The notes under the pieces are model-generated. The model had not been told where the DNA came from, made no database searches, and was given only the letters and a program-made list of their open reading frames with translations. A program made the translations under genes and the position numbers. DNA of 64,000 bases from Sphingopyxis sp. 113P3. Lineage in GTDB: Bacteria > Pseudomonadota > Alphaproteobacteria > Sphingomonadales > Sphingomonadaceae. This document shows positions 7,212 through 26,011 of this stretch, in pieces. The stretch covers positions 3,443,501 through 3,507,500 of the forward strand of contig NZ_CP009452.1 in the NCBI RefSeq assembly GCF_001278035.1. The letters run 5' to 3'. The first letter of the stretch is position 1. Each line of letters opens with the position of its first letter.

Positions 7212-8087
7212 ATGGCCGCACGCGCCTATTGGAAGGGGCAAATCCGGCTCGCGCTGGTGTCGATCCCCGTCGAAATCTACCCCGCGACCAAGTCGGGCGC
7301 GGGCATCAGCTTCCGCCAGATTCACGAACCGAGCGGCAAACCGATCCGCTATGAGAAAATCGTGCCCGGCATTGGCGCGATCGACACCGATGACATCATC
7401 AAGGGCTATGAGACCTCGAAGGGAAATTATGTCCTTCTTGAGGATGAGGAGATCGAGGCGGTCAAGCTCGAGAGCAAGCGCACCCTCGAACTCGTCCAGT
7501 TCGTCGACGCGAGCGACATCGACATCCTCTATTACGCCAAACCCTATTATGTGGTGCCCGCCGATGAATTGGCCGAAGAAGCCTATATCGTCCTTCGCGA
7601 GGCGCTGCGGCGCACGAAGAAGGTGGGGCTCGGCCAGCTCTCGGTGCGCGGGCAGGAACAGCTTGTAGGCCTGCGCCCCTGCGGGCGCGGGCTGGTGCTC
7701 GAGGTGCTGCGCTACGCGGACGAGGTGAACAAGGCCGCCAATTATTTTCGCGACGTCGGCAATGGAAAGCCTGACGCAGACCTCCTCGACCTTGCCGAAA
7801 CGCTGATCGACAAGAAGAGCGGCAAGTTCGATGCATCGGATTATCACAATCATTATGTCGACGCGCTGAAACGCGTGATCGCCAAGAAGGCGAAGGCCAA
7901 GGGCAAGAAAGTTCTGGAGGACGTCGAGGAACCGGCGGGCATCGACCGCGGGTCGAATGTCATCGACCTGATGGCCGCCCTCAAGGCCTCGGTCGAGGGC
8001 AAGAAGAAAGCGCCCGAAAAGGACGCCGGGAAGGAACCGGCGAAGAAGGCGCCCGCGCGAAAGGCCCCCGCAAGGAAGCGGGCGTAA
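7212..8087 (+). CDS. ku: Ku homodimer DNA end-binding protein
   Basis: A 291-residue bacterial Ku: conserved opening ARAYWKGQIRLALVSIPVEIY, a beta-barrel core with YYVVPADELAEEAYIVLREAL, and the C-terminal linker to a lysine/alanine-rich tail (KAPARKAPARKRA). It forms a ring on double-strand breaks and recruits LigD for non-homologous end joining. The ATG at 7212 is preceded by AAGGA; the frame is open 24 bases further upstream. The stop lies one base before the ligD start, so the two form a translationally linked pair. The basic tail is the usual DNA-threading/LigD-stimulating extension. Confidence 0.95.
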   Translation: MAARAYWKGQIRLALVSIPVEIYPATKSGAGISFRQIHEPSGKPIRYEKIVPGIGAIDTDDIIKGYETSKGNYVLLEDEEIEAVKLESKRTLELVQFVDASDIDILYYAKPYYVVPADELAEEAYIVLREALRRTKKVGLGQLSVRGQEQLVGLRPCGRGLVLEVLRYADEVNKAANYFRDVGNGKPDADLLDLAETLIDKKSGKFDASDYHNHYVDALKRVIAKKAKAKGKKVLEDVEEPAGIDRGSNVIDLMAALKASVEGKKKAPEKDAGKEPAKKAPARKAPARKRA

Positions 8088-8088
8088 G

Positions 8089-10602
8089 ATGGCACGCGCA
8101 GACCCCCTCGCCCCTTACAACGCCAAGCGCGACTTCGCGCTGACCCCCGAACCTGCGGGGAAGATCGAAAAAGGTGCAGGTCACCGCTTCATCGTCCAGA
8201 AGCATGATGCGACGCGCCTCCATTATGACTTTCGCCTCGAAGCCGACGGCGTGCTCAAGAGCTGGGCGGTGACCAAGGGGCCGAGCGCCAACCCCGACGA
8301 CAAGCGCCTTGCCGTGCGTACCGAGGATCATCCGATGGCCTATGCCGAATTCGAGGGCGTGATTCCGAAGGGCGAATATGGCGGCGGCACGGTGATGCTG
8401 TGGGACAGTGGCAGCTGGGCGCCGGTCGAGGGAAAAAGCGCGAAGGACATCGAAAAGGGCCACCTCCACTTCATCCTCGACGGGCAGCGGATGAAGGGCG
8501 AGTGGCTGCTCGTCCGCATGAAACCGCGTCCGGGCGAGAAGCGTGAGAATTGGCTCCTTCGCAAGGTAAAGGATGCCGAGGCCGGCGGGAGCGACGATCT
8601 GACCGGCCGCCACCTCACCAGCGTGCTCACGGGACGCACGATGGCCGAGATCGCGGGCGACGAGGGCGGCGAGCAATCGCTCGAAGGCGCAAAGGGCGCG
8701 GCCTTCACGAAGAAGATGAAGGCGGCCGCGGCGCATAACAGGAAGGTCGCCAGGCCAAGGGCGAACGCCAGGCGCGCGAGGCCCCCCGGATTTCGTCCGC
8801 TGCAGCTTGCAACGCTGGTCGATGCAGTGCCGGCGGGAAACGGCTGGATGCACGAGATCAAATTCGATGGCTATAGAGCCGAGATCGCAGCGGCCGGCCG
8901 CGACGTGCACGTCTACACGCGAAGCGGGCTCGACTGGACCGAAAAATTCGCGCCGCTCGTGCGTCACATTGCCGCGCTCGACCTGCCGCCGTGCCTGATC
9001 GACGGCGAGATCGTTGCCTATGGCAAGGATGGCAACCCCGACTTCTCATCGCTGCAGGCCGTGCTGAAGCGCGGTCACGGGGCGCAGGACGAGCAGACCG
9101 AGCTGCGATTCTTCGCGTTCGATCTGCTCGAAGAAGGCGGAAAGTCGCTCGCGAACCTTGGCAATCTGGAACGCAAGGAACGGCTGGAAGCGCTGCTGCG
9201 CGATGCGAGCCCCCCAATCGCGGTCGCGGACCATGTGATCGGCGCGGGCGAAACCCTTTACGGCGCAATGTGCAAGGCAGGACAGGAAGGCATTATTTCA
9301 AAGCGCGCCGACGCGGCCTATTCCGGCCGCCGCACGAAAAACTGGGTCAAGGTGAAATGCACCCGGCGGCAGGAATTCATCATCGTCGGCTGGAAGCCCT
9401 CGTCGACGAAGCAGCGCCCCTTCTCCTCGCTGCTGCTCGCGCAGTGCGAGGGCGACGAACTTGTCTACAAGGGCAATGTCGGAACGGGCTTCGACACGAA
9501 GGTCATGGCCGAGCTTGCGAAGCAGTTTGCGCGGCGCGAGCGCAAGAGCGCGCCGCTCGAGGTTGACAAGGCTGCGGCGCGCCATGTCCGATGGCTGAGG
9601 CCCGACCTCGTCGCCGAAATCGCCTTTGCTGAATTCACCGCAAGCGGATCGGTGCGCCATGCAAGTTTTCTGGGCTTGCGCCACGACAAGGAGGCAAAGG
9701 ACGTGACCCCCGAAACGCCGCAGCCCGCTCCCGCGCCCGACAGCGACATCGTGATCACCAACCGCGAGCGGGTGATCTTTCCCGAGGCCAAGGCGACCAA
9801 GGGAGATCTCGCCGACTATTATGCAGCCGTCGCGCCCGTCATGCTCCCGCACATGGCTCGGCGTCCCGTCAGCCTCGTACGCTGTCCGCAGGGGCGGGCG
9901 AAAAAATGCTTCTTCCAAAAGCATGACGCGGGAAGCTTCGGCGGCCATGTCCATCATGTCCCGATCCGCGAGAAGGACGGAGGACACGAGGATTATCTTT
10001 ACGTCGAGGATGCGGAAGGCATCCTCGCCTGCGTCCAGATGGGAACGATCGAGTTTCACGGCTGGGACAGCCACGTCGACGCGCTCGAGACACCCGATCG
10101 CATGGTCTTTGACCTCGATCCCGATGAGGGGCTCGGCTTTGCCGAGGTCAAGAAGGCGGCGGTCGACCTTCGCCGCCAGCTCGCCGACATCGGCCTTGTC
10201 AGCTTCGCCATGCTCTCGGGCGGAAAGGGCATCCACGTCGTGGTGCCGCTCGAGCCTGGGCATAGCTGGGAGAAGCACAAGGATTTCTCGAAGCGTTTCG
10301 CCGAAGCGCTGAGCCTCGCCGAGCCCGATCGCTATGTCGCCACGATGAGCAAGGCAAAGCGCAAGGGAAAGATCTTCATCGATTATCTGCGCAACCAGCG
10401 CGGCAGCACTGCGATCATGCCCTACTCGGCGCGCGCGCGCGAAGGCGCGCCCGTCGCCGCCCCGATCGGGTGGGACGCGCTTGCGGGCATCGAAAGCCCG
10501 GCCCGCTGGACCATCGGCGACGCCGAGGAGCTTCTGACCCGCGCCGCGAGCGCCGAGCTCAAGGGCTGGGGCTTTGCCCAGCAGAAGCTGCCCGATTTCT
10601 GA
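8089..10602 (+). CDS. ligD: DNA ligase D (phosphoesterase-ligase-polymerase)
   Basis: An 837-residue three-domain end-joining enzyme. Order: 3'-phosphoesterase (HDATRLHYDFRLE at about 39-51, GVIPKGEYGGG), ATP-dependent ligase (adenylated Lys258 in EIKFDGYR, then DGEIVAYG, EGIISKR and the OB-fold), and a C-terminal archaeo-eukaryotic primase-like polymerase (starts about 555; FDLDPDEG near 674 carries metal-binding aspartates; SGGKGIHVVVPL). This PE-Lig-Pol order is common in proteobacteria and differs from the mycobacterial Pol-PE-Lig order. With Ku it processes and seals broken DNA ends, adding nucleotides or ribonucleotides. All three domains appear intact. Confidence 0.95.
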   Translation: MARADPLAPYNAKRDFALTPEPAGKIEKGAGHRFIVQKHDATRLHYDFRLEADGVLKSWAVTKGPSANPDDKRLAVRTEDHPMAYAEFEGVIPKGEYGGGTVMLWDSGSWAPVEGKSAKDIEKGHLHFILDGQRMKGEWLLVRMKPRPGEKRENWLLRKVKDAEAGGSDDLTGRHLTSVLTGRTMAEIAGDEGGEQSLEGAKGAAFTKKMKAAAAHNRKVARPRANARRARPPGFRPLQLATLVDAVPAGNGWMHEIKFDGYRAEIAAAGRDVHVYTRSGLDWTEKFAPLVRHIAALDLPPCLIDGEIVAYGKDGNPDFSSLQAVLKRGHGAQDEQTELRFFAFDLLEEGGKSLANLGNLERKERLEALLRDASPPIAVADHVIGAGETLYGAMCKAGQEGIISKRADAAYSGRRTKNWVKVKCTRRQEFIIVGWKPSSTKQRPFSSLLLAQCEGDELVYKGNVGTGFDTKVMAELAKQFARRERKSAPLEVDKAAARHVRWLRPDLVAEIAFAEFTASGSVRHASFLGLRHDKEAKDVTPETPQPAPAPDSDIVITNRERVIFPEAKATKGDLADYYAAVAPVMLPHMARRPVSLVRCPQGRAKKCFFQKHDAGSFGGHVHHVPIREKDGGHEDYLYVEDAEGILACVQMGTIEFHGWDSHVDALETPDRMVFDLDPDEGLGFAEVKKAAVDLRRQLADIGLVSFAMLSGGKGIHVVVPLEPGHSWEKHKDFSKRFAEALSLAEPDRYVATMSKAKRKGKIFIDYLRNQRGSTAIMPYSARAREGAPVAAPIGWDALAGIESPARWTIGDAEELLTRAASAELKGWGFAQQKLPDF

Positions 10603-10821: not shown

Positions 10822-13800
10822 ATGAAACGGGTGGGGACAGGGGTAGCCGCAAGGCGTTCGCACGTGCTTGGAACGCTGCTCGCGAGCACGGCACTGGTCA
10901 TGACGGCAGCGCCGCTCAAGGCGCAGGAGGCAGCGGCCGACGAGAGCGAAGGCGACGCGATCATCGTCACCGGGATCCGCAGCTCGCTTCAGAACGCCCT
11001 CGTCGAAAAGCGCGACGCAAACAATCTGGTCGAGGTGATCCAGGCTGAGGATATCGGCAAGCTGCCCGACCAGAATCTCGCCGAAGTGCTCGAAAACGTC
11101 ACCGGGGTTCAGATCACCCGCCAGGCGGGCGTCGGCAATGCGGTGCAGATCCGCGGCACCGACGCCAACCGCGTCGAGATCAACGGCGTGTCGACCGTCG
11201 GGTCGGGCGCGGGGCGGTCGGGGATCAGCTTCGAGGATCTGCCTGCATCGCTGATCGCTTCGGTCGAGGTGGTCAAGGTGCCGACCGCGCAGACGATCGA
11301 AGGATCGGTGGGCGGCACGATCAACCTTCGCACGATCCGCCCGCTCGACTTGCAGGGACCGCTGATCGCGGCGCGCGCGCAAATGGAGAACAGCGACCTT
11401 GCAAAATCCACCCTGCCGCGGCTCTCCGCGACCGTCGGCAACAATTGGGAGACCGGAATAGGCGAGATCGGCATCGTCTTGAGCGGCAGCTACGCGCGCC
11501 AGGACGTCGCCGCGTTCAAGCCGCGCGTCGACCGCGACGCAGTCGTTCTCCCGGGATCGGGGCCGAGCGCGGAGGCCTTTCCTTTCCTGCGTATCCAGTT
11601 CCTTCAGCAGGGGCTCGAGAATTACGAATATGAAACCTACAACGGCACCGCTGCGCTCGAGTGGAAGCCGGACGACAATCTGAAGCTTTATTTCGACGCA
11701 ACGCTCAACAACCAGAGGCGCGCGCAGGAAAGCCACCGGGTCCAGATTTCGGGCACCGCGACCCCCTCGGTCGTCGATGCGATGAACAACACCGCCTTCG
11801 AGACGGTCGACTTCGGCAGCCTCAACGGCCCCGACGGCCCGGTCAATCTCGGCACGGTCGAGGCCGCGGTCGCGGGCACGATCGGCATCGGGGGCTCGAC
11901 GGGCACCTTGATCGATCCCAACATGCGCATGTCGAGCGACACAGGGGCGCGCGTGACCAAGAGCCGCGTTTTCGATCTGGGCACCCAGTGGGACGCGACC
12001 GACAAGCTCAGCGTGCGCGCCGAGGTCTCGCTGTCGACCTCGAAGTCGCGATTCCCGAACTTCTCGACCACGCTCGATTTCATCAACCCGAACGGCCCCC
12101 AGCCCGTCATCGGGCAAAGCCTCGACAACGGCGTACCGCTGGCATTCGACCTGCGGGGCGGCACGCTGCAATTCGGCATCGATCAGTCGAGCCCCTTCGC
12201 GCCGACGACCGCGCAGTTGCTCGACCCCGCCAATTACCGGTTGCAGCAGGTGGCGCAGGGGGCAAATACCACCGACAATCAGGAGCGCGCCGGCCGGCTC
12301 GACGTCCATTATGACACGAGCGACCTCAACCCCTTCGTGACCTCGATCGACATCGGCTATCGATGGAACCGCACCTCGGCCGAGAATGTTGAATTCTCCC
12401 GCAACGTCAGTCTCACGCACACCACCAATGCGTGGAACCGGCCATCGGGCGATCTGTTCTCGGACATCCTCATTCCCGGGCCCAGCAATTTCAACGCGGC
12501 CGACGGGCGCGATCTTTATTTCGGCGACTTTCTCCTCATCGATGGCGGGCTCGCATTCCGCGACCCGGGGCGGGTGCTCGACGCACTCAACGAAGCGATC
12601 GCGGCGAGCAATGCAGCGGCCACCCAGGGCCCGCCGGTCGCGACGCTCGAAACGCCGACCGAATCCTTTTCCGGCTTCTTCAAGATCAAGGAAACAACGA
12701 GCGCAGCCTATTTCCAGGCCAATATGGAAGGCGACATCGCGGGCATGCCGCTGCGCGGCAATGTCGGCGTCCGGTGGCTGCGCACCAGCCTCGCCTCGAT
12801 CGGCAACAATATCGCAAACGGCGAGGTCACCGGGCAAATCGTCGCGAAGAGCCACTACACTTTCCTGCTCCCGCGGCTCAGCCTCGTCCTTGAGCCCGCT
12901 GACAAGTTCCTCGTGCGCGCCGGCATCTCGCGCGACATCCGGCGCCCGAACTTCGACACGCTGTCGACCTCCTATTCGTTCGGCACCGGCCCCAACACGC
13001 CGGTTGCGGTCGGCAATCCGGACCTCGTTCCCGAAGCGGTTTGGTCGTTTGACTTGTCGGGCGAATATTATTTCGCCCCCTCAAGCCTGATCAGCGTCGG
13101 CCTCTTTCACAAGAGCCGCACCAATCTGTTCGCGCAGCGGCACGAGGACCCGGCTCCCAATCTCGACGCCGATGGCAATCTCAACATCTCGATCGATCCC
13201 TCCTGCCCCGGCGGCGGCATCTACAACCCGATTGCCAACCGCAACATCAACAATCCCATTCAGGGTGTCGGCATCTGCGTCCCGCGCAGCTCGACCTTCA
13301 ATGTTCCCGGCACCACGACGCAGACCGGCATCGAAATCGCCCTTCAGCATGACCTGTCGGCGTGGGAGGATGTGCTGGGCTTCGCCTCGGGCTTCGGCTT
13401 CATCGGCAACTTCACCTATCAGAAGACCGGCGGCTCGGCGCGCGAGTATCGCGAGGCGGACGGCCCGCGCACCGTCTTCACCCAGCTCGGGCACCCCGGC
13501 GCGCAGGACCTGATCAGCCTCGCGAACCTGTCGAAATATGCGTATAACGCGACGCTCTTCTACGACAAATACGGCCTCAACGCCCGGCTGCGCTATACGT
13601 GGCGATCGAGCTATGTCTCGACCGACCCCTTCTTCTTCGGCCTGCCGCTGATCAATGGCGCCCGCGGCCAGCTCAACGCCAGCATCAATTACGACATCAA
13701 CGACCACATCAATGTCGGGGTCGAGGGGATCAACCTCCTGCGCGGCGACCAGAACCAATATTGCGTCAACAACAAGGCGCTGCTCTGCTTCCAGGGCCTC

Positions 13801-13842
13801 ACCGACCGCCGCATCACGGCAGGGGTGAGCGTCAAGTTCTAG
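10822..13842 (+). CDS. TonB-dependent receptor (Xanthomonas/Caulobacter type)
   Basis: A 1006-residue outer-membrane receptor. It has a signal peptide (to about residue 35, ALVMTAAPLKAQ), a TonB box-like DAIIVTGIRSSLQNAL, a plug domain (EDIGKLPDQNLAEVLENVTG, IRGTDANRVEINGV, PTAQTIEGSVGGTINLRTI) and a long beta-barrel ending in VSVKF, with a C-terminal aromatic residue for barrel insertion. The plug wording is that of the large TonB-Xanth-Caul subfamily, often used for carbohydrate import. The substrate is not readable, and no glycosidase or transporter lies next to it. The paired dyads upstream suggest substrate-responsive control. Confidence 0.9.
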   Translation: MKRVGTGVAARRSHVLGTLLASTALVMTAAPLKAQEAAADESEGDAIIVTGIRSSLQNALVEKRDANNLVEVIQAEDIGKLPDQNLAEVLENVTGVQITRQAGVGNAVQIRGTDANRVEINGVSTVGSGAGRSGISFEDLPASLIASVEVVKVPTAQTIEGSVGGTINLRTIRPLDLQGPLIAARAQMENSDLAKSTLPRLSATVGNNWETGIGEIGIVLSGSYARQDVAAFKPRVDRDAVVLPGSGPSAEAFPFLRIQFLQQGLENYEYETYNGTAALEWKPDDNLKLYFDATLNNQRRAQESHRVQISGTATPSVVDAMNNTAFETVDFGSLNGPDGPVNLGTVEAAVAGTIGIGGSTGTLIDPNMRMSSDTGARVTKSRVFDLGTQWDATDKLSVRAEVSLSTSKSRFPNFSTTLDFINPNGPQPVIGQSLDNGVPLAFDLRGGTLQFGIDQSSPFAPTTAQLLDPANYRLQQVAQGANTTDNQERAGRLDVHYDTSDLNPFVTSIDIGYRWNRTSAENVEFSRNVSLTHTTNAWNRPSGDLFSDILIPGPSNFNAADGRDLYFGDFLLIDGGLAFRDPGRVLDALNEAIAASNAAATQGPPVATLETPTESFSGFFKIKETTSAAYFQANMEGDIAGMPLRGNVGVRWLRTSLASIGNNIANGEVTGQIVAKSHYTFLLPRLSLVLEPADKFLVRAGISRDIRRPNFDTLSTSYSFGTGPNTPVAVGNPDLVPEAVWSFDLSGEYYFAPSSLISVGLFHKSRTNLFAQRHEDPAPNLDADGNLNISIDPSCPGGGIYNPIANRNINNPIQGVGICVPRSSTFNVPGTTTQTGIEIALQHDLSAWEDVLGFASGFGFIGNFTYQKTGGSAREYREADGPRTVFTQLGHPGAQDLISLANLSKYAYNATLFYDKYGLNARLRYTWRSSYVSTDPFFFGLPLINGARGQLNASINYDINDHINVGVEGINLLRGDQNQYCVNNKALLCFQGLTDRRITAGVSVKF

Positions 13843-13852
13843 AAGGGGCGCG

Positions 13853-13892
13853 GGGGTGCGGGGGCGCAGCGCGCCTACGCCCCCGGCACCCC
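13853..13892. terminator. GC-rich bidirectional terminator-like hairpin
   Basis: GGGGTGCGGGGGCG (13853-13866) pairs with CGCCCCCGGCACCCC (13878-13892) with a single bulged base. It lies exactly where the TonB receptor gene and the convergent TPR gene end, and takes in the TPR gene's last codons. No T-run is present, so this is a structural call only. Confidence 0.45.
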
Positions 13893-14798
13893 GAGCAAAC
13901 CGGCCTGCGCCTTGAGCCGCGCAGCCGCGTCCGGATTGGCGGCGACCGCGTCCTTGAGCGCCTGCGCAGCCTTGGCGGTCTCGCCCAGCGTCATGCGGCT
14001 GCGCATCAGCATGATCCAGCGGTCGACATCGCCAGGGTTCGCCTTCAGCTTCGCCTCGAGCCCGTCGACCATGCCCGCGATCATCGCATCCTGCTGGCCC
14101 TTGGGAAGCTGCGCGGCGGCCTCCATTTCGGCGCGGCTCGGGCCGGGGATCGCGCGCGCAGCGACGGGAAGCTCGTCAGGCGTCAAGGGCCGCGCCTGCG
14201 TCCGTGCGAGCCGGTCTGCGACCTCGATCTTGTGGATTGCTCCGACCTGCTCGATCGTGCGGCGAAGATCCGCCTCCCACGGCGCGCCCTGCGGCGTGTC
14301 GGCAAGCAGCGCGAACCAGTCGTCGATTGCGCCCTTGTGATCGCCCGCAATATCCTTTTTCACCGCCATGAAATAGCGCGCGCGCGGATCCTTCGCATCG
14401 AGCGCGATGGCCTTGTCGAAGGCCTCGCGCGCCGCGGCCGGCAAGGGGTCCCGCTCGCTCGCCATCACCCGCGCCTCGCCGAGCGCCGACCAGATGGGCG
14501 CGCTTTCCGGGGCGAGCGCCACCGCCTTTTCATAGGCCGCGACCGCCCCTTTAAAATCGCCCATATCGAAGCGCGCCGCGCCCAGCATCGTCCACGCCTC
14601 GATGCTCCGGGGCTCGCGCCGGGTGCGGTCCTCCAGCGCGCCGATTGCATCGGCGGGCGCTGCGCCGCCAGCCTCGGCACGGGGCGGCGGCGCGCCTGCA
14701 TCGCGCCACATCGCATAGCCGACGGCCGCCGCGAGCAGCACGAAGGCAGCGATCAATATCGCGCGGTTGGCACCCGACAGGCCCTTGGTCTCACTCAT
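13875..14798 (-). CDS. CcmI/CycH-like TPR protein
   Basis: A 307-residue protein with one N-terminal membrane helix (AILIAAFVLLAAAVGYAMW, about residues 14-32) and a periplasmic array of tetratricopeptide repeats (EAWTMLGAARFDMGDFKGAVAAY, PIWSALGEARVMAS, RARYFMAVKKDIAGDHKGAI, RWIMLMRSRMTLGETAKAA). This matches the TPR part of CcmI/CycH proteins, which hold apocytochrome c for haem attachment. The start at 14798 follows GGAAGGGG on the coding strand. No other ccm genes are adjacent, so a general TPR role remains possible, but the nearby multihaem cytochromes make a maturation link attractive. Confidence 0.65.
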   Translation of the reverse strand: MSETKGLSGANRAILIAAFVLLAAAVGYAMWRDAGAPPPRAEAGGAAPADAIGALEDRTRREPRSIEAWTMLGAARFDMGDFKGAVAAYEKAVALAPESAPIWSALGEARVMASERDPLPAAAREAFDKAIALDAKDPRARYFMAVKKDIAGDHKGAIDDWFALLADTPQGAPWEADLRRTIEQVGAIHKIEVADRLARTQARPLTPDELPVAARAIPGPSRAEMEAAAQLPKGQQDAMIAGMVDGLEAKLKANPGDVDRWIMLMRSRMTLGETAKAAQALKDAVAANPDAAARLKAQAGLLGVPGA

Positions 14799-14968
14799 TT
14801 TTGCCCCTTCCGCATCGCGCATGAAAAAGCTGCCGGCAGCGCTGCTGCCATCTTGCCATTGCGCGGTGATGGTGTAGCCTTTATCGGGCAAGGTCGGTCA
14901 ACGACAATTTCGTAAAACAATGGGGTCGCACCAATTTTCCCGGTTTGAGCAAGAAGGGGGAGGGGTGC

Positions 14969-16376: not shown

Positions 16377-17816
16377 ATGACGACGCACGCTGGACAGGGG
16401 CGCGGCGATCGGCCTTGGGCGGCATTGGCGGGCTTTGCGCTGATGCTCGCGGCCCTGGCGCTCGCGGCTCTCATCGCGGCGCCGCCGGCGCGCTCGCAGG
16501 GAGATGGCGGCGGGCGTTTCCTTGGCGTTGCCTCGTGCGCGGGCTCGACCTGTCACGGCCGGATGGAGGGCGACGGTACCGTCGTGCGCCAGGACGAGTT
16601 GATGAAATGGCAGGAGCCCTCGACCCCGGGGGGCGCACACAGCCGCGCCTGGGCTGTGCTCTCGAACAGCCGCAGCCAGTTCATCGCGCGCAATCTCGGC
16701 ATCGGCGACCCGAGCCGCGCTGCGATGTGCCTGGGCTGCCACAGCGATGCCGCGGCAAGCCGCGGCACTGCGCCGCTTGCCGATGGGGTGAGCTGCGAGA
16801 CGTGCCATGGCCCCGCGGGCAGCTGGATCGCCACCCACTATGCCGGGGTGGGACCCAACCCCGATCCCGGTGCGGAAATGCGCGAGAAGCATCTTGCGAA
16901 CCTTCGTGCAGGCCTTCGCAAGCTCGAGGACCCCGTGGTGCGCGCGGGCGTCTGCGTCGACTGCCATTTCGGATCGGCGGGCGAGGGACAGTTTGTCACC
17001 CACCGTATCATGGCGGCGGGGCATCCGCGCATTTCGTTCGAGCTCGATCTCTTCTCGGCGCTCCAGGCGCACCATGATGAGGACAGCGACTATGGCTGGC
17101 GCAAATTCGGGGCGCAAGGCGGGCACACGGACCATGTCCAGATGTGGGCGGTGGGACAGGCGACCGCGCTTGAACGCAGCCTCACCCTCTTCCAGTCGAA
17201 GCGCGGAACCGAGGGTGTCTTCCCCGAATTCTACTTTCTCGACTGCCATAGCTGTCACCGCCGCATCTACGACCAGGCAAAGCCCGTGAAGACGAGCCTC
17301 GCCAACCCGGGGCGCCCCGGCCTTCCCGAGGGCATGCCGCCCTATAATGACGAGAATCTGATCATGCTGTCGGCGGCAGCGCGCCTCGCGGCGCCCGGAC
17401 TTGCCGAGCAGCTCGGCGCGCGCAGCGCCGCCTTCCACCGCGCGCTTGCCACCGACCGGCCGAGCGCTGTCGCCGCGGCCGGTGCCCTTGCGCAGACGGT
17501 CGCAGCGCTCAAGGCAGCCTTTGCGTCGCGCAGCTTTTCGGGCACCGACGCCTTCGCGCTCGTCGATGCCATCGCGGCAAAGACGATAAACGACCGCTTC
17601 ACCGACTATGCAGGTTCATCGCAAGCGGTGATGGGGGTCGACACCCTGCTTGGGTCGATGGTGTCGTCGGGACGGGTGACGGTGGGCGCTGCGGCGGGAA
17701 TCCGGGCCGATCTCGACCGCGCCTATGCGGCGGTCAAGGACCCTAACGCCTACAAGCCCAATGATTTCCAGGCCGCACTCGGCCGCGCGGTGCGCGCGAT
17801 CCAGGCCCTGCGGTGA
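16377..17816 (+). CDS. Multihaem cytochrome c (c554-like)
   Basis: A 479-residue exported cytochrome: signal peptide (hydrophobic stretch to about residue 40, PPARSQG), then CAGSTCHG (Cys54-His60; a CX4CH spacing), CLGCH, CETCH, CVDCH and CHSCH, giving four standard haem sites plus one unusual one. The layout and the opening VASCAGSTCHG resemble the cytochrome c554-like family. The C-terminal 150 residues are helical and haem-free. The ATG at 16377 follows AAGGGGACGG. It is the first gene of a four-gene operon; the stop overlaps a possible GTG start of the next gene. A periplasmic electron-shuttling role is inferred from the operon, not shown. Confidence 0.85.
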   Translation: MTTHAGQGRGDRPWAALAGFALMLAALALAALIAAPPARSQGDGGGRFLGVASCAGSTCHGRMEGDGTVVRQDELMKWQEPSTPGGAHSRAWAVLSNSRSQFIARNLGIGDPSRAAMCLGCHSDAAASRGTAPLADGVSCETCHGPAGSWIATHYAGVGPNPDPGAEMREKHLANLRAGLRKLEDPVVRAGVCVDCHFGSAGEGQFVTHRIMAAGHPRISFELDLFSALQAHHDEDSDYGWRKFGAQGGHTDHVQMWAVGQATALERSLTLFQSKRGTEGVFPEFYFLDCHSCHRRIYDQAKPVKTSLANPGRPGLPEGMPPYNDENLIMLSAAARLAAPGLAEQLGARSAAFHRALATDRPSAVAAAGALAQTVAALKAAFASRSFSGTDAFALVDAIAAKTINDRFTDYAGSSQAVMGVDTLLGSMVSSGRVTVGAAAGIRADLDRAYAAVKDPNAYKPNDFQAALGRAVRAIQALR

Positions 17817-17821
17817 CGCTC

Positions 17822-19801
17822 ATGCCCACGCGCTCTTCCCTCTTTCGCTCGACCGCTTTTGCCGCGCTTGGCGCGCTTCTCCTCGCCTCGTGCGGAGGCG
17901 GGGGCGGCGGCGGCAGTACCCCGACGCCGAGTCCCGCGCCGACGCCCACCCCGGCGCCCTCCGGCGGGCTCTATACGCCGCCTGCTGCCGCAGCGCTGAG
18001 CGTCGCCGAGGTGCAACAGATCCTCGCAAATGCCATCGCCGAGGCCCAGGCGCGAAGCCTCCCCTCGATGATCGCGGTCACCGACCGCGTAGGGAATGTC
18101 CTTGCCGTTTTCCGCATGAATGGTGCGCGCGCGACCGCAACCACCTCGGCGGCCCCTAATGGCGCGAATATCGACGCGCAGAACGTGACTTTCCCTGCCG
18201 AGGCGGGTGCGATCGCAAAGGCGATAACGGGCGCCTATCTGTCGAGCGGCGGCAACGCCTTTTCGACGCGGACCGCGAGCCAGATCGTTCAGGAGCATTT
18301 TCCGCCTGCGCCCACGACGGTCGGCCTTGAAAGCGGGCCGCTGTTCGGGGTGCAGTTCAGCCAGCTTCCGTGCAGTGATTTCTCGTCGCGTTTCGGCGCC
18401 GCGGGCGCTGCCGCGCTGATCGGCCCGAAGCGCTCGCCGCTCGGTCTCGCCGCGGACCCCGGGGGGCTGCCGCTCTACAAGAACGGCGTGCTTGTCGGCG
18501 GCATCGGCGTGATGGGCGACGGCGATTACGGGAGCGATCCCAATATCCTCGACATCGACAATGATGCCGAGGAGTTTATCGCGCTCGCCGGCACGCGCGG
18601 CTTCGAGGCGCCGGCGAGCATTACGGCCGACAAGATCACTGTCGACGGGACGAGCCTGCGCTTTTCGGATGCGACCTATGCGGGGCTGATGACGGGCGGC
18701 GGCGCGAGCTTTGCGAGCCTCAACGGGAGCGCGGGAAGCCTGATCGCGGTTACCGGCTATGCCAACGCCGCGGTGATCGCGGGGACCGCCTATGGTAGCG
18801 AGGCGTCGGGCGTGCGCCCCTCGATGCCAGGCGAATTTTCGAACCGCGACGCGTTCGTCCTGACCAATGGCAGCGGCGCCAACCGCTTCCCGATCCGCAG
18901 CGGCACCGACGGCGCGTCGAACAGCGCGCCGCTGACCGCTGCCGAGGTGCGCGCGCTGCTCGAGGAAGCCTTTGCGGTGATGAGCCGCGCCCGCGCGCAG
19001 ATCCGCCGCCCGCTCGACAGCCGCGCGCAGGTCACGATCAGCATCGTCGACACCCACGGCGAGATTCTCGGCATCGTCAGGTCGCCCGATGCGCCGATAT
19101 TCGGCGCCGACGTCAGCCTGCAAAAGGCGCGAACCGCGACCTTCTTCTCGGCGGCGCAGGCGGGCGCCGAGCTTTCGGCGAACGCCAGCGCCGATGTGCG
19201 CCAGTTCGTCCCCGCGCTGCGCAGCTTCCTCAGCGATCCATCGGCGCTGACGGGCAAGGTTGCTTTCGCCGACCGCTCGGGCGGCAATTTGTCGCGCCCC
19301 TATTTTCCCGATGGCGAAGTCGGGCGCCCGCACGGCCCGCTGTCGCGCCCGATTGCGCAGTTCAACCCCTTCTCGACTGGGCTGCAGTCGGCGCTGATCA
19401 TCGGCAATCTCGGCCAGCATCTCGCCTATGTGTCGGGCGCCAGCGCGACGGACACGCCGCAGCGCTGCACGACGCTTCCCGACGTCGCGCCGGGACACAA
19501 CCGGTTGCAGAACGGCATCCAGATCTTCCCCGGGTCGGTCCCCATCTACCGCGGCAACCGCCTCGTCGGGGGCATCGGCGTCTCGGGCGACGGCATCGAC
19601 CAGGACGACATGATCAGCTTCCTTGGCGCTCATAACGGCGGGGGAAGGACGGGCGGCATCGGCAACGCGCCGGTGGATCTGCGCGCGGACCGCATCGTCG
19701 TCAGGCTCCAGGATGGGGCGACGGTTCGGCTGCGTTACATCAGCTGTCCCTTCGCGCCCTTCCTCGACACGGGCCAGCAAAATGTCTGCGATGGGCTCTA
19801 G
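17822..19801 (+). CDS. Lipoprotein with two GlcG/HbpS-type domains
   Basis: A 659-residue lipoprotein: signal peptide and lipobox LLLASC (Cys24), then a glycine tract and a proline/threonine linker. Two related halves follow. Each opens like GlcG/HbpS proteins (LSVAEVQQILANAIAEAQARSLPSM; LTAAEVRALLEEAFAVMSRA) and closes with the family motif (LPLYKNGVLVGGIGVMGDGD; VPIYRGNRLVGGIGVSGDGI). HbpS members bind haem; whether this one does is inference. A GTG at 17813 overlapping the previous stop is an alternative start. It lies between a multihaem cytochrome and a beta-barrel gene, with 3 bp to the next gene, which suggests an outer-membrane-anchored partner. Confidence 0.75.
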   Translation: MPTRSSLFRSTAFAALGALLLASCGGGGGGGSTPTPSPAPTPTPAPSGGLYTPPAAAALSVAEVQQILANAIAEAQARSLPSMIAVTDRVGNVLAVFRMNGARATATTSAAPNGANIDAQNVTFPAEAGAIAKAITGAYLSSGGNAFSTRTASQIVQEHFPPAPTTVGLESGPLFGVQFSQLPCSDFSSRFGAAGAAALIGPKRSPLGLAADPGGLPLYKNGVLVGGIGVMGDGDYGSDPNILDIDNDAEEFIALAGTRGFEAPASITADKITVDGTSLRFSDATYAGLMTGGGASFASLNGSAGSLIAVTGYANAAVIAGTAYGSEASGVRPSMPGEFSNRDAFVLTNGSGANRFPIRSGTDGASNSAPLTAAEVRALLEEAFAVMSRARAQIRRPLDSRAQVTISIVDTHGEILGIVRSPDAPIFGADVSLQKARTATFFSAAQAGAELSANASADVRQFVPALRSFLSDPSALTGKVAFADRSGGNLSRPYFPDGEVGRPHGPLSRPIAQFNPFSTGLQSALIIGNLGQHLAYVSGASATDTPQRCTTLPDVAPGHNRLQNGIQIFPGSVPIYRGNRLVGGIGVSGDGIDQDDMISFLGAHNGGGRTGGIGNAPVDLRADRIVVRLQDGATVRLRYISCPFAPFLDTGQQNVCDGL

Positions 19802-19804
19802 GCG

Positions 19805-21721
19805 ATGATGGGGGGGAGCAGCCTTTGGCCACTAATCGCGAGCCTTGCGGCACAGGGCGCTCCGGGCGAGGCACCCGCGCCTGCGCCGCTTCCCGCTGCC
19901 GAGCAGCCGGCCGCTGGCGAACCTTCGCTCGACGAGCTTGCTCCCCCGCCTCCGCCGGCCGACTGGCAGGAGGCGATCGGCGATGACCTCGCCACCCAGA
20001 TCCTCGATGGCCGCCGCCGGCCGGGCTATAACCCCATTCTTCCCGACCGGCTGACACAGGACAATGAAGGGGCGCTTCGCCCGCCCCCGCCCGAAGCCTT
20101 TCCCGGAATCGAGGACCAGCTCCCCATCCCTGACCGCTGGCGGCTGATCGAGACGCTGGGCGTGGTCAAGGAACGCTGGTTCGACCCTTATCACCAGAAC
20201 ACATTGAAGGGCGATCGGCCCATCGACCGCAGCAAGGTGAAGTGGCTGCCGATCAAGGGCGACGACTGGTTCTTCGTCGCCAATCTCATATCGGACAGCG
20301 TGTTCGAACCACGGACCTTTCCGATCCCCAACGGTGTCCAGACGACGGCGCGCCCCGGCAGCCTCGACGTGTTCGGAAAGAACCGCAGCTTCGTCGCGGC
20401 GCAGACCTTCATCGGCGGCTTCGCGCTGATCAAGGGCTCGACCGCCTTCAAGCCCCCCGACGTCGAATATCGCCTGACGCTGGCCTATAATATCAACTAT
20501 GTCGACGTGCCCGAACGGCGCGTGCTCGACGTGCGTCCATCGAAGAAGAGCCACCGCTTCGACCATTTCGTCGGGGTGCAGGAAGCCTTTATCGACAAGC
20601 ATCTGGGCAACGACAGCGACCGCTACGACTTCCACTCGATCCGCGTCGGCATCCAGCCCTTTCAGAGCGATTTTCGCGGGTTCCTGTTCAACGACAGTCA
20701 GCTCGGGATCCGCTATTTCGGCAATCGCGACAACAATCGCTTCCAGTATAATCTGGCGGCCTTCTGGCGGCTCGAAAAGGATACCAACAGCGGCCTCAAC
20801 GATATCGCCCAGACGCCGCGTGACGATTTCATCCTGACCGCCAATGTCTATCGGCAGGACTTTCCTTTCGTCGGCTTGACCAGCCAGCTCAGCGCCACGT
20901 GGAACATCAACCGCGAAAAGAACGACGTCCAGATCGACCATAATGGTTTTCCCGTGCGCCCGGCGCTCCTCGGCGATTTGCGTGGGCGCAATTATGATGT
21001 CGTCTATCTTGGCTACAGCGCCGACGGCCGGATCGGCCGGCTCAATTTGACCACCAGCCTCTATGCTGCACTCGGAAAGGACCGGAACAGCTTCTTCACG
21101 AGCGAGCCGGCGAAGATCCGCGCCGGGTTCGGGGCAGCCGAGCTCAGCTACGACCGGGACTGGATGCGCTTTCGCCTGTCGGGACTTTACGCAACCGGCG
21201 ACGGCGATCCCTACAATCGTACCGAGGGCGGGTTCGACGCGATCTTCGAAAATCCGATCTTCGCAGGCGCCGACACCAGCTACTGGATCCGCCAGACCAT
21301 CCCCTTTGCAGGCGGCGGGCGCGTGATTTCGATCAACGGCCGCAACGGCATATTGAACTCGCTGCGCTCCTCGAAGGAAGAAGGCCAGTCGAACTTCAAC
21401 AATCCGGGCACGATCCTCGTCGGCGCCGGCGGCGATTTCGACCTGTCGCCGCAAGTGCGTGTCAGCGCCAACCTCAATCATCTCTGGTTCGAAAATACAT
21501 CGAGCCTCCAGGTGCTGCGCAGCGAGGGCTCGATCCCCAGGGATATCGGCTGGGACCTGTCGCTCGCCGGCATCTGGCGGCCCAAGGCCACGCAGAACAT
21601 CGTCGGGCGGCTGAGCGCGGCCGTCCTCGTCCCCGGCGCGGGGTTCAAGGATCTGTTCGATAACAAGCAGCGGGACGACATTTACGTGTCGATCCTCGCC
21701 AACATGATTTTGAGTTTCTAG
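19805..21721 (+). CDS. Outer-membrane beta-barrel protein of cytochrome operon
   Basis: 638 residues: an N-terminal segment rich in alanine and proline, then alternating polar/aromatic strands through the whole protein (for example YRLTLAYNINYVDV, FQYNLAAFWRLEKD, LTANVYRQDFPF, RFRLSGLYATGDGD) and a terminal phenylalanine (ANMILSF), the usual barrel-insertion signal. I do not recognise a named porin family. The N-terminal export signal is weak (LWPLIASLAAQG), so the true start may differ. Stop and start codons are separated by 3 bp on both sides, binding it to the lipoprotein and the decahaem gene. By analogy with porin-cytochrome conduits it may hold a cytochrome across the outer membrane. 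Confidence 0.72.
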   Translation: MMGGSSLWPLIASLAAQGAPGEAPAPAPLPAAEQPAAGEPSLDELAPPPPPADWQEAIGDDLATQILDGRRRPGYNPILPDRLTQDNEGALRPPPPEAFPGIEDQLPIPDRWRLIETLGVVKERWFDPYHQNTLKGDRPIDRSKVKWLPIKGDDWFFVANLISDSVFEPRTFPIPNGVQTTARPGSLDVFGKNRSFVAAQTFIGGFALIKGSTAFKPPDVEYRLTLAYNINYVDVPERRVLDVRPSKKSHRFDHFVGVQEAFIDKHLGNDSDRYDFHSIRVGIQPFQSDFRGFLFNDSQLGIRYFGNRDNNRFQYNLAAFWRLEKDTNSGLNDIAQTPRDDFILTANVYRQDFPFVGLTSQLSATWNINREKNDVQIDHNGFPVRPALLGDLRGRNYDVVYLGYSADGRIGRLNLTTSLYAALGKDRNSFFTSEPAKIRAGFGAAELSYDRDWMRFRLSGLYATGDGDPYNRTEGGFDAIFENPIFAGADTSYWIRQTIPFAGGGRVISINGRNGILNSLRSSKEEGQSNFNNPGTILVGAGGDFDLSPQVRVSANLNHLWFENTSSLQVLRSEGSIPRDIGWDLSLAGIWRPKATQNIVGRLSAAVLVPGAGFKDLFDNKQRDDIYVSILANMILSF

Positions 21722-21724
21722 GCC

Positions 21725-24700
21725 ATGCACCGCAAGCTCTTCGCCATTGCCGCCTTCCTGCTGATGTCGCTGGCCTTTGCCGCGCAGATGGTCAGCGCAT
21801 CCGAAGAGGAAAAGCCGGTCAAGGTCGAGTATCGCTTTACGCCGCCTGCACCGCGCGAGCAGAGCGAGGCCGAGATGATGGCGAAGTCGGAAGGCTGTTA
21901 CAGCTGTCATGTCCGGACCGATCGGCCCACGATGCACGCGACCCCCGCGGTCCGGCTCGGCTGCACCGACTGCCATGGCGGGGATGCGCGCGAATTTGGC
22001 GACCCGAAGCTCGGTTATGAGGATCCCTCGAACAAGGCGGTGATGAAGCGCGCGCATCCGCAGCCAACGCTCCCCGGCGCGTGGGGGGAGACGTCGGCGA
22101 ACCCGAAGCGGAGCTATACGCTGCTCAACAAGGAAGCGCCCGAATATATCCGCTTCGTCAATCCGAGCGACTACCGGGTCGCGCGCGAGGCCTGCGGCGC
22201 GTGTCACCTCGAGATCATCGAGGCCGCCGAGCGCTCCTTGATGTCGACCGCGGCGATGTTCTGGGCGGGCGGCGCCTATAATAATGGCATCGTTCCCTTC
22301 AAGAAGTCGATCTTCGGCGAAGCCTATACGCGGACCGGCGAGCCGGCGTGCGTCCTCTCCCCCTCGTCCTTGCTGAGCGCAGAAGAGTATAAAGAGGCGT
22401 GCAAGCCGAGTTTTGCGTCAGAAAAGATCCTCTCCGACAGCGAGACGAAGCGCGGCGCGCTCGCGCGGCTCTATCCGCTGCCGCGCTGGAGCGTGATGCC
22501 GCCGAGCGACGTGTTTCGCGTCTTCGAACGCGGCGGACGCAACATCAACACGCAGTTCCCCGAGATTGGCCTGCCCAATCCGACCGGAAGCATCCAGCGG
22601 CTCGAGGAGCCCGGACGCCCCGACCTCAAGCAGTCGAACCGCGGTCCGGGCACCGGGCTGCGCATCGCGATCGCGGTGCTCAACATCCACAAGACGCGCC
22701 TCAACGACCCCTATATGTGGTTCATGGGGACCAACGACCAGCCCGGCGACTATCGCCAGTCGGGCTGCGCGGGCTGCCATGTCATCTACGCCAACGACCG
22801 CGAGCCGCGGCACAGCCTGACCTATGCCGCCTTTGGCCGCGACGGCGAGACCGCAACGGTCGATCCGACCATCGCAGGCAAGACATGGAAGCCGGACGAC
22901 GGCGGCCACGGCGGCGGCCACGCTAAAGCGGCCGCGCATGCGCCCGGCGCAGAAGGGCACGGCGCCCTCATTGATCCTGCGGATGCCGCGGCCGGGGCGC
23001 CGGTGAAGCCGCGCGGCGAATCGGGGCATCCGATCACCCACGCCTTCACCCGCGCGATTCCGACCGCCCAGTGCATGAACTGCCACATGCACCAGCCGAA
23101 CATCTTCTTAAACTCCTACCTCGGATACACGATGTGGGATTATGAATCGGACGCGCCGCAGCTCTGGCCGGGACCCGAGAACAGCGCGCCGCGCCCGGCT
23201 GGGATGAGCGAGGCGGAGTATCGCAAGACCTACAAGCAGCAGCGCTATCCGTCCGCGGCCGAAGTGCACCGGACGCTGGAGCGCAATCCCGAAGGCGCAA
23301 GCCCGCGCGGCCTGTGGTCCGACGTCGAGTTCCTTCGCGACGTCTATGACGTCAACGCGAGCAACAAGGACACGCAGTTCGCGGACTATCACGGCCACGG
23401 CTGGAACTTCCGCGGCGTCTTCAAGCGCGACCGCAGCGGCAACCTGCTCGATGCCGAGGGGAATATGGCGACCTACGGCACCGACAGCGCGCATATCATC
23501 GACCCCAGGGACCCCGAGAAATGGCGCAAGAGCTGCGCGCATTACGGGGACGCGAAGCAGCGCGATCTCTGCCTTGCGAGCGCCGATCCGGAAAGGCCGG
23601 GCATCGAGGGCAAGTTCGTTCCGCCGGGTCTCAATCCCGGCAAGGCCGTCCATATGATGGACATCCACGCCGAAAAAGGGATGCAGTGCGCCGACTGCCA
23701 CTTCGCGCAGGACAGCCACGGCAATGGCTATATTCAGGGCGAGGTCGCAAACGCGATCGAGATCGGCTGCAAGGACTGCCACGGCACCGCGGATGCGCTG
23801 CCCAACCTCTTGACCTCGAACGTCGCGGCGCGCCCGCAGGGAACCAACCTTGCCTTGCTGCGCAACCCCGACGGGCGGCGGCGCTTCGAGTTCCAATATG
23901 GCGATGACGGCGAGGTTACCGGGCTCATTCAACGTTCGATCGTCGACCCCAAGCTCGAATGGCAGGTCAGCCTCGTCAAGCAGGCGGTGACGCCGGGGCC
24001 GCATTTCAATGCCAAGGCGGCGCGCGCAAAGCTGATGTCGCGCTCGGGCGCCGAGGACGGCAGTTTTGCCTGGGGACCGGGCATCGCGCGCGAGGACCGC
24101 GCCCACGGCGACGAGCGCATGGCCTGCTTCACCTGCCACCTGTCATGGACCACGAGCTGCGGCGGCTGCCATTTGCCCATCGAGGCGAACTGGAAGACCA
24201 AGATGCACCATTTCGAGGGGGAGGAGACGCGCAATTTCGCAACCTACAACCCGCAGGTGGCGCGCGACGAAATGTTCCAGCTCGGCCGGCACATGCTCAC
24301 CAAGCCCGGCGAGCCCGACGCCGATGGCAATCCGCGCGGCATCATCGCGCCGATCCGCTCGTCTTCGGCGCTTGTCCTGTCGTCGACGAACATCAACCGC
24401 GAGCGCATCTATGTGCAGCAGGCGCCCATTTCCGCTGCGGGCTTTTCAAGCCAGGCTTTCGCGCCGCACTTCCCGCACACGGTGCGGCGGAGCGAAACCA
24501 AGCAATGTACCGACTGCCACCTGTCGGCGGCCGACGACAATAATGCGATCATGTCCCAGCTCCTCCTTCTGGGCACCAATTTCGTCAACTTCGTCGGCCT
24601 CAACGTCTGGTCGGGGCTCGAGGATGGCTTCCAGGCGACGCGCGTCACCGAATGGGACGAGCCGCAGGCCGTTATCGGCAGCTATCTCCAGCGCTATGCC

Positions 24701-26011
24701 TATCCCGATTACTGGAAATTGCATGTCGAGCAGAATGGCCGTGAGCTCAAGAACTGGGTGCGCGGCAAGACCTTCGACAAGAAGGGGTCGGGCGAAAGCC
24801 GGTCGCTCGAGGAGTTTCACAATTTCGTCCAGGGGACGAGCGGGCGGGTGAACTGCCTCCAGCAGCGCGGGGAATATATGTTCGTCGCCGAGGGCAAGGG
24901 CGGCTTTCGCGTCTACGACGTCGCCTCGATCGGCAACAAGGGCTTCTCCGAACGCATCGTTCGCGCCCCATTCTCGCCGCTGGGGCACGACACGCATGTC
25001 AGGACGAAGAATGCAACCTGCATGGCGATCGGCACAAATCAGCCGATCAGCATGGCGCGCAACGAGTTCATCCGGAAGAATTTCCCGGAAAATGAGGAGC
25101 AGGCGCTGCATCCCATCTATCGCTATGCGGTGATCACCGACAGCGTCGAAGGGCTGATCCTCGTCGATGTCGACACGCTCGCTGACGGCGAATTCCGCAA
25201 CAACCGCCTCACCCGCGCGCTGACCTGGAACCCCGACAATATGCTCGCCGGCGCGCGGCACATCACGCTCGCGGGCAACTATGCCTATATCACCGCCGAG
25301 ACCGGGCTCGTCGTGGTCGATCTCTCGGTCCCGCTTGAACCGAAGATCACCGCGCGGCTGCCGCTCACCGACGCGCGGGCGAGCGCGGTGCAGTTCCGCT
25401 ATCTCTGGGTCACCGATGCCGAGGGCGTGAAGCTGTTCGACATCACCCATATGGACCAGCCGGTGCCGGTGCCCTCGGGGACGGTGCGGCTCGCGGATGC
25501 ACGCAAACTCTATCTTGCGCGCACCTTCCTGTATGTTGCGGCGAAAGCCGACGGGCTGGTCATCGTCGACGTCACGCGCCCCGCCGCGCCCATCGCGGGG
25601 CCCCCGCTGACCTTCGGCGGCACGATGACCGATGCCGAGGATGTGATCGTCGCGACCACCAATGCCTCGCTCTTCGCCTATGTCGCCGACGGGCGGAACG
25701 GCATCAAGGTGCTCCAGCTCACCAGCCCCGACAATCCGGGTCTCTACGGTTTCTCGCCCAAGCCCGCGCCAGAGCTGATCGCCTGGGCGAAAACGCCCGC
25801 GCCGGCGCTGTCGCTCTCGAAGGGGCTCGACCGCGACCGCGCGGTCGACGAGACAGGCGGGCAGCTCGCGATCTTCGGCCGCATCGGCTCGCGGCCCTTC
25901 ACCCGGCCCGAGATGGAGAAGCTGTTCCTCAACAGCAAGGGCCTGGTCTACAAGGTCAGCGATGCGGTCGATCAAGGCGGCTGGCGACCCCCGCTCAAAT
26001 ATCCCGATTGA
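21725..26011 (+). CDS. Decahaem cytochrome c with C-terminal LVIVD repeats
   Basis: A 1428-residue exported protein. After a signal peptide (cleavage near AQMVSAS, residue 26) there are ten CxxCH sites: CYSCH (Cys58), CTDCH (80), CGACH, CAGCH, CMNCH, CADCH, CKDCH, CFTCH, CGGCH and CTDCH (928). There is also a histidine-rich loop GGHGGGHAKAAAH. From about residue 1100 it turns into a propeller-like region with repeats GLILVDVDTL, GLVVVDLSVP, GVKLFDITHM, GLVIVDVTRP and GIKVLQLTSP, the LVIVD family pattern. No membrane anchor is seen beyond the signal. As the last gene of the operon it is the likely outermost electron carrier; donor or acceptor is unknown. Confidence 0.85.
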   Translation: MHRKLFAIAAFLLMSLAFAAQMVSASEEEKPVKVEYRFTPPAPREQSEAEMMAKSEGCYSCHVRTDRPTMHATPAVRLGCTDCHGGDAREFGDPKLGYEDPSNKAVMKRAHPQPTLPGAWGETSANPKRSYTLLNKEAPEYIRFVNPSDYRVAREACGACHLEIIEAAERSLMSTAAMFWAGGAYNNGIVPFKKSIFGEAYTRTGEPACVLSPSSLLSAEEYKEACKPSFASEKILSDSETKRGALARLYPLPRWSVMPPSDVFRVFERGGRNINTQFPEIGLPNPTGSIQRLEEPGRPDLKQSNRGPGTGLRIAIAVLNIHKTRLNDPYMWFMGTNDQPGDYRQSGCAGCHVIYANDREPRHSLTYAAFGRDGETATVDPTIAGKTWKPDDGGHGGGHAKAAAHAPGAEGHGALIDPADAAAGAPVKPRGESGHPITHAFTRAIPTAQCMNCHMHQPNIFLNSYLGYTMWDYESDAPQLWPGPENSAPRPAGMSEAEYRKTYKQQRYPSAAEVHRTLERNPEGASPRGLWSDVEFLRDVYDVNASNKDTQFADYHGHGWNFRGVFKRDRSGNLLDAEGNMATYGTDSAHIIDPRDPEKWRKSCAHYGDAKQRDLCLASADPERPGIEGKFVPPGLNPGKAVHMMDIHAEKGMQCADCHFAQDSHGNGYIQGEVANAIEIGCKDCHGTADALPNLLTSNVAARPQGTNLALLRNPDGRRRFEFQYGDDGEVTGLIQRSIVDPKLEWQVSLVKQAVTPGPHFNAKAARAKLMSRSGAEDGSFAWGPGIAREDRAHGDERMACFTCHLSWTTSCGGCHLPIEANWKTKMHHFEGEETRNFATYNPQVARDEMFQLGRHMLTKPGEPDADGNPRGIIAPIRSSSALVLSSTNINRERIYVQQAPISAAGFSSQAFAPHFPHTVRRSETKQCTDCHLSAADDNNAIMSQLLLLGTNFVNFVGLNVWSGLEDGFQATRVTEWDEPQAVIGSYLQRYAYPDYWKLHVEQNGRELKNWVRGKTFDKKGSGESRSLEEFHNFVQGTSGRVNCLQQRGEYMFVAEGKGGFRVYDVASIGNKGFSERIVRAPFSPLGHDTHVRTKNATCMAIGTNQPISMARNEFIRKNFPENEEQALHPIYRYAVITDSVEGLILVDVDTLADGEFRNNRLTRALTWNPDNMLAGARHITLAGNYAYITAETGLVVVDLSVPLEPKITARLPLTDARASAVQFRYLWVTDAEGVKLFDITHMDQPVPVPSGTVRLADARKLYLARTFLYVAAKADGLVIVDVTRPAAPIAGPPLTFGGTMTDAEDVIVATTNASLFAYVADGRNGIKVLQLTSPDNPGLYGFSPKPAPELIAWAKTPAPALSLSKGLDRDRAVDETGGQLAIFGRIGSRPFTRPEMEKLFLNSKGLVYKVSDAVDQGGWRPPLKYPD

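Follow-up and report, generated by a model that had tools for sequence, protein, structure and literature searches.

A four-gene barrel and cytochrome operon of Sphingopyxis sp. 113P3, probably the outer-membrane module of a two-module electron-transfer chain

The four-gene operon

We analysed a stretch of 64,000 nucleotides (C1:3443501-3507500 on contig NZ_CP009452.1; the whole stretch is called the window here, and positions are counted from its first letter) of the 4.66-Mb genome of Sphingopyxis sp. 113P3, which carries an operon for two multihaem cytochromes, a lipoprotein and a predicted outer-membrane barrel. All four genes are on the + strand, and encode a pentahaem-type c cytochrome of 479 amino acids (16377-17816; assigned from its open reading frame (ORF), domain and motif counts), a GlcG/HbpS-like lipoprotein of 662 amino acids (17813-19801), a predicted 18-strand outer-membrane beta-barrel of 638 amino acids with a conserved N-terminal extension (19805-21721) and a decahaem c cytochrome of 1428 amino acids with C-terminal LVIVD repeats (21725-26011; assigned from motifs and domain models). 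The pentahaem and GlcG genes overlap by 4 bp and the following two gaps are 3 bp and 3 bp, confirming the tight cluster reported in the preliminary description of this DNA, an arrangement that is conserved. Judged by sight, a glutamate dehydrogenase-like gene ends 52 bp before the block and a convergent SpoT/RelA-like gene lies downstream of it. Both flanks together are found in Sphingopyxis-type loci, and the block is kept elsewhere with other flanks. Scanning for promoters and terminators gave nothing that exceeded shuffled sequences.

The pentahaem protein contains four CxxCH motifs, one CX4CH motif and a cytochrome c554-like domain, and its N-terminus has a signal-like stretch (by sight). 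The GlcG/HbpS protein carries a lipobox cysteine at position 27 and matches PF03928 (E 9.6e-24) with its HbpS-like domains, and the LVIVD protein combines 10 CxxCH motifs with its LVIVD repeats. Sequence searches of the PDB returned weak haem-motif matches only. The barrel protein matches no Pfam or NCBIfam model at E 0.1; a protein named from Sphingopyxis flava shares 98% identity with it. Structure prediction gave 18 strands with moderate confidence (pLDDT 57.5) and a fold resembling AlgE and OprD/Occ; thus the 638-residue protein is, by prediction, an integral outer-membrane beta protein, as had been proposed.

Conservation and spread of the outer block

Of 101 loci, 93 have the triad of GlcG, barrel and LVIVD genes and 81 have the complete set of four, so the wide co-occurrence on which the preliminary description had staked its proposal is real. 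Seven of the eight loci without the triad are cut by contig ends; the eighth (L075) is uncut and has the barrel and LVIVD genes alone. Of the 75 loci with four complete ORFs, 68 retain the gene order and strand (65/65 in L003-L082 and 3/10 in L116-L131 plus L141-L145). An exported-looking protein of ~136 amino acids recurs in 10 distant loci (no Pfam match in the one copy scanned), and in two of them it lies between the decahaem and GlcG genes (L126:11786-12196 and L130:12008-12523).

Features of the individual proteins are conserved as well. All 78 complete pentahaem orthologues have four CxxCH motifs plus one CX4CH, and the CX4CH is conserved like the CxxCH motifs. A C-terminal F or Y is found in 94 of 95 complete barrel orthologues. 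10 CxxCH motifs are found in 94 of 96 complete LVIVD orthologues, and the ten haem motifs are invariant in the 32 sequences aligned (32/32). Decay or assembly error probably lies behind two LVIVD copies, at L019 and L072, one counting 9 CxxCH and the other being a 306-aa ORF that has 3 CxxCH. A crude lipobox pattern matches 71 of 89 complete GlcG orthologues; the lipoprotein put forward earlier as a partner in a conduit has its lipobox cysteine in Sphingopyxis sp. 113P3, and the anchor is not universal in the family.

The barrel and the triad are not confined to sphingomonads: they were also found in further families of Alphaproteobacteria and in a second class of the phylum. All 16 loci from the alphaproteobacterial families outside the sphingomonads have the triad, and nine of them (9/16) have the pentahaem gene within the fetched DNA. 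The best 120 relatives of a gammaproteobacterial LVIVD protein include proteins named from Colwellia, Thalassotalea, Haliea, Halioglobus, Kineobactrum and Oceanicoccus; of these genera, Thalassotalea, Haliea and Halioglobus were seen with the LVIVD protein alone. The LVIVD gene is on 13 of 72,556 plasmid records (12 Sphingobium, 1 Sphingopyxis). Database labels of the protein are mostly hypothetical or LVIVD repeat protein.

An inner module encoded elsewhere in the genome

We surveyed the neighbours of the outer block in 70 loci (L034-L082, L116-L131 and L141-L145, which leaves out most Sphingopyxis loci; neighbour counts for the barrel and GlcG were not used because clustering merged both into one group). 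Three families recur: a decahaem cytochrome with an FHA domain and a transmembrane segment (FHA-decahaem; 47 loci), a flavin/4Fe-4S protein (45 loci), and a small b-type cytochrome-like membrane protein with two HX13H pairs (IMP; 41 loci). Relatives of the flavin/4Fe-4S protein (L043, L142) contain an NAD(P)-binding flavin domain, two cNMP domains and 4Fe-4S domains. In Sphingopyxis sp. 113P3 the flavin/4Fe-4S, IMP and FHA-decahaem genes form one operon with a phosphoesterase gene at C1:688021-694182. A distance of 2.77 Mb on the contig, or of ~1.6 Mb in the opposite direction should the contig be circular, separates it from the window operon. The same inner operon is found in three further second loci (L151-L153). 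The two halves adjoin in other genomes, and both are present in a Colwellia (L142). Cytochrome_C7 matches in the genome of Sphingopyxis sp. 113P3 at E<=0.01 are the FHA-decahaem and LVIVD proteins only, from a search that missed the pentahaem protein, and other multihaem proteins are possible.

The window operon is thus not self-contained, and a stand-alone conduit was rejected because the inner module nearly always accompanies the outer one.

The IMP of Sphingopyxis sp. 113P3 has the motifs W99/H103..H117 and W267/H271..H285 and SGLYG at 140; two WX3HX13H motifs plus SGXXG are found in 44 of 45 window-type IMPs (the one from L080 has no SGXXG match). A single ORF of ~1120 amino acids joins the flavin/cNMP/4Fe-4S protein to the IMP at two loci from another class (L183:7350-10706 and L185:3052-6423). 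The phosphoesterase (calcineurin-like, L150:11335-12183) adjoins the FHA-decahaem gene in Sphingopyxis sp. 113P3, and its family is found in 29 of the 70 loci; a link to cyclic nucleotides is conceivable, given the cNMP domains in the chain.

The two halves also co-occur across genomes, as seen in three overlapping samples. Among 99 genomes of the family, 34 contain the LVIVD gene, 33 the IMP gene and 33 both; no IMP was found without LVIVD in these sphingomonad genomes, and the sole LVIVD genome without IMP (G022) is 67% complete. Of 289 genomes of the class, 20 contain the window-type barrel and 27 a close-type IMP (E<1e-70, a limit set after seeing the gap from 2e-79 to 2e-17), with 20 containing both. 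In the phylum sample (398 genomes), 12 contain the barrel and 15 the IMP (E<1e-60), and all 12 barrel genomes have the IMP (12/12).

Exchange of outer modules and relation to PCC4

Of the 27 alphaproteobacterial genomes with a close-type IMP, 26 encode the window barrel alone (18), a PCC4-type porin unrelated to it (six) or both (two). The exception, G122, encodes neither; a window-type GlcG gene lies where one of its contigs ends. Among the seven class genomes that have a close-type IMP and no window barrel, three (L162-L164) encode, beside the inner genes, a 5-haem protein and a Pfam-less protein of ~500 residues (profile A8), whose sequence pattern and position suggest a porin and which, going by gene content, would be the PCC4 porin. 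According to an A8 search of the 289 class genomes, 26 contain this gene, including 6/7 of those with a close-type IMP and no window barrel; it is away from the IMP gene in G149 and G353. Genomes with a distant IMP only have A8 in 9 of 10 cases, the exception (G334) having neither barrel. The A8 profile found no match, and thus no PCC4-type porin, in G000. Comparison of the A8 and window barrel profiles gave a probability of 0.1, and homology of the two outer barrels was not detected. Alignments of haem proteins A2 with A9 and A3 with A9 are confined to the surroundings of the haem motifs. Several cases do not fit a tidy swap: no IMP was found in nine A8 genomes of the class sample, G334 has no recognised outer barrel, and in the DNA fetched for L183 and L185 no outer module was recognised.

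PCC4 is a putative porin-cytochrome complex described from Hyphomicrobium, Zetaproteobacteria and others, with a porin, 4-, 5- and 10-haem cytochromes, an Fe-S gene, further redox genes and an IMP that has SGXXG and two copies of WX3HX13H (He et al. 2017, PMC5566968). The inner module of Sphingopyxis sp. 113P3 resembles it in the motifs of the IMP, in the Fe-S gene upstream of the IMP gene (the gene order of Subgroup II) and in the decahaem gene after the IMP gene; PF13247 was matched (E 5.8e-11) in a scan of the L043 relative of the Fe-S protein, not of the protein of Sphingopyxis sp. 113P3. IMP motifs alone do not prove kinship, because PCC3 IMPs share WX3HX13H/SGXXG without overall homology (PMC5566968). 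Stronger evidence of kinship comes from profile matches: L168 has the PCC4 set of 4-, 5- and 10-haem, IMP, Fe-S and redox genes plus a porin-like gene, L186 (cut at contig ends) has the set minus the 5-haem gene, and the IMPs of both loci are weak but significant homologues of the window-type IMP profile. He et al. also mention an annotation in Oceanospirillum beijerinckii that joins flavin-Fe-S and IMP-like parts (PMC5566968).

By sequence, then, the inner module is PCC4-like, with close-type IMPs beside both kinds of outer module. The whole system is not filed as PCC4, because its porin and haem set differ. Its haem motifs number four CxxCH plus one CX4CH, 10 and 10 (4, 10 and 10 by CxxCH alone), against 4, 5 and 10 in PCC4, and its outer module has another barrel, a GlcG lipoprotein and an LVIVD decahaem protein, with no A9-type 5-haem protein. 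Unlike the window-type relatives that were scanned, the PCC4-type L168 has neither a fused flavin/NAD(P) domain nor an FHA domain on its decahaem protein. The preliminary description had called the conduit undescribed: this would apply to the outer module, while the inner one carries motifs of the proposed PCC4 (PMC5566968). Searches of an open-access library brought up no description of the window system; the supplementary lists of He et al. may name it.

Comparison with other known systems

Conduits are described as combining a periplasmic multihaem cytochrome, an integral outer-membrane beta protein and an outer-membrane redox lipoprotein (PMC6148476). The window operon encodes multihaem c-type cytochromes, by its pentahaem and decahaem motifs, next to the predicted barrel. 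Geobacter ExtHIJKLMNOPQS is similar in having a porin, multihaem cytochromes and a non-cytochrome lipoprotein, ExtH being a rhodanese-like lipoprotein (PMC6148476). The LVIVD protein is weakly similar to the ExtM, ExtN and ExtO models, and ExtM is matched in all 16 members (16/16); however, all Ext matches are far under the cut-off (74.6 vs 800 bits for ExtM, NF040943). The inner parts differ too: ExtP/ExtO are a cytochrome b and a Rieske protein (PMC5877670), whereas the inner module here has a cNMP/4Fe-4S flavoprotein and an HX13H protein.

MtrCAB, PioAB and MtoAB also combine a barrel with multihaem cytochromes, MtrB having 26 strands (PMC7198977). The MtrB/PioB type was rejected as the barrel has no MtrB_PioB (PF11854) match; the best PF11854 match in the genome of Sphingopyxis sp. 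113P3 (15.5 bits vs a cut-off of 23) is not at the barrel. MtrB is not among the matches listed in the barrel fold comparison, which does not exclude an MtrB likeness. Cyc2 is likewise an outer-membrane electron system whose barrel is smaller than that of MtrB, its 16 strands being fused to a monohaem domain (PMC8406198). The Cyc2 type was rejected: neither the barrel protein nor its 95 complete orthologues contain CxxCH.

Proposed electron path and alternatives

The window operon probably encodes the outer-membrane part of an electron-transfer chain that spans the envelope and is built from two modules. We currently favour a PCC4-like chain that carries a new outer-membrane module and whose genes lie at two loci in Sphingopyxis sp. 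113P3. Of the conduit idea in the preliminary description, the co-occurring families, the predicted barrel and the conduit-like parts stand; the operon itself is one half of the proposed chain, the other being the PCC4-like inner module. In such a chain, electrons from cytoplasmic NAD(P)H would enter the protein with flavin, two cNMP domains and multiple 4Fe-4S clusters, pass to the cytochrome b-like IMP with its two HX13H pairs and then to the FHA-anchored decahaem cytochrome in the periplasm. From there they would be handed to the pentahaem protein and on to the LVIVD decahaem protein, which the 18-strand barrel and the GlcG/HbpS lipoprotein may keep in place at the outer membrane or spanning it, and which would deliver them to an acceptor at the cell surface. 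We infer the electron flow, the surface exposure and any acceptor. In the PCC4-type L168 the NAD(P)H-reductase-like protein is a separate gene, with a homologue in L186; this, the fused flavin domain and the fused ORFs support electron flow between pyridine nucleotide and the membrane.

A number of points weigh against an outward chain to the cell surface. The uncut locus L075 (7998-13975) has barrel and LVIVD genes, with no GlcG or pentahaem gene found in ~8 kb upstream. The barrel fold resembles the substrate channels AlgE and OprD/Occ as opposed to the 26-strand MtrB, and an 18-strand barrel may not be able to sheathe haems. The AlphaFold2 model of LVIVD residues 27-1020 is unusable (pLDDT 45). 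LVIVD proteins mostly have no lipobox (pattern in 2/96), which weakens the case for their surface exposure. The Fisher p of ~2e-25 for co-occurrence of the two halves, in the family and in the class sample, is uncorrected for phylogeny. The named hosts mostly belong to aerobic genera that are not known for metal respiration. Finally, He et al. drew PCC4 in reverse, with an outside donor feeding quinones (PMC5566968).

The AlgE- and OprD/Occ-like fold would suit a different role, in which the LVIVD decahaem protein acts as a periplasmic or outer-membrane-associated reductase of a small substrate entering through the barrel channel, the GlcG lipoprotein binds substrate or haem, and electrons cross the inner and not the outer membrane. 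The ExtM/N/O models are annotated for selenite/tellurite reduction, and in Geobacter the conversion of selenite/tellurite was affected when the porin ExtI was lost, ExtI being apparently unimportant for Fe(III) reduction (PMC5877670). However, among haem families the window proteins match the carrier-type C554 and C7 above the cut-off and the catalytic Cytochrom_C552 below it. The inner module also pairs with the unrelated porin-like plus 5-haem module, so a generic electron outlet fits better than one substrate, and we regard the reductase as unlikely.

The same chain may instead run inward, with a donor outside the cell, for instance Fe(II) or Mn(II), supplying electrons that pass the barrel-cytochrome module and end at the inner membrane or NAD(P)+; He et al. 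proposed this direction for PCC3 and PCC4 (PMC5566968). The fused NAD(P)-binding flavin domain (L043, L142) and the NAD(P)H-reductase-like gene of L168 and L186, however, fit a pyridine-nucleotide donor. Electron transfer from Fe(II) to NAD(P)+ is, moreover, energetically uphill. Given a chain, we lean modestly towards the outward direction, the inward one having its share of the same probability and being, as a reading of its own, improbable.

The system might also serve aerobes in acquiring iron, as a ferric or haem reductase at the cell surface to which the cytochromes supply electrons and in which the HbpS-like lipoprotein binds haem. This reading would draw on the HbpS-like domains, on the comparison by He et al. 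of HX13H motifs with ferric reductase transmembrane domains (PMC5566968) and on a TonB-dependent receptor-like ORF (10864-13842, by sight), yet no siderophore or TonB protein is among the identified recurring neighbours (other recurring families are unannotated), and we consider it very unlikely.

Other genes in the window

A CcmI/CcmH-type TPR protein for cytochrome c maturation is encoded at 13875-14891 on the - strand (an ORF from TTG, whose true start may be internal). A tblastn search with family fam6 matched the window at 13881-14720, and the L043 relative contains PF23914 (E 1.3e-22). Members of the family occur in 31 of the 70 loci and frequently adjoin the inner module; the presence of one near the outer module hints that the two halves were once one locus. 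The TonB-dependent receptor-like ORF adjoins this gene. Two adjacent genes at 7212-10602 look like a DNA-repair pair (by sight), presumably Ku and LigD. The region 41354-64000 is rich in short ORFs; by sight, ORFs 51520-52635 and 52766-53794 have near-identical starts, and similar ORF pieces at 41354 and 61864 look like transposase copies.

Implications

We put forward, tentatively and with more doubt than confidence, that these genes represent an undescribed, widespread form of extracellular electron transfer in aerobic bacteria, which would be signal-gated (cNMP/FHA), NAD(P)H-fed and quinone-bypassing, with interchangeable outer modules including the unrecognised window type. The pairing of one inner module with either of two unrelated outer ones would be a testable case of modular design. 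If true, about one third of the sampled sphingomonads (34/99; 33 with IMP) and a Colwellia would have an electron chain from the inner to the outer membrane, which would change the view of how pollutant-degrading and marine bacteria live at low oxygen.

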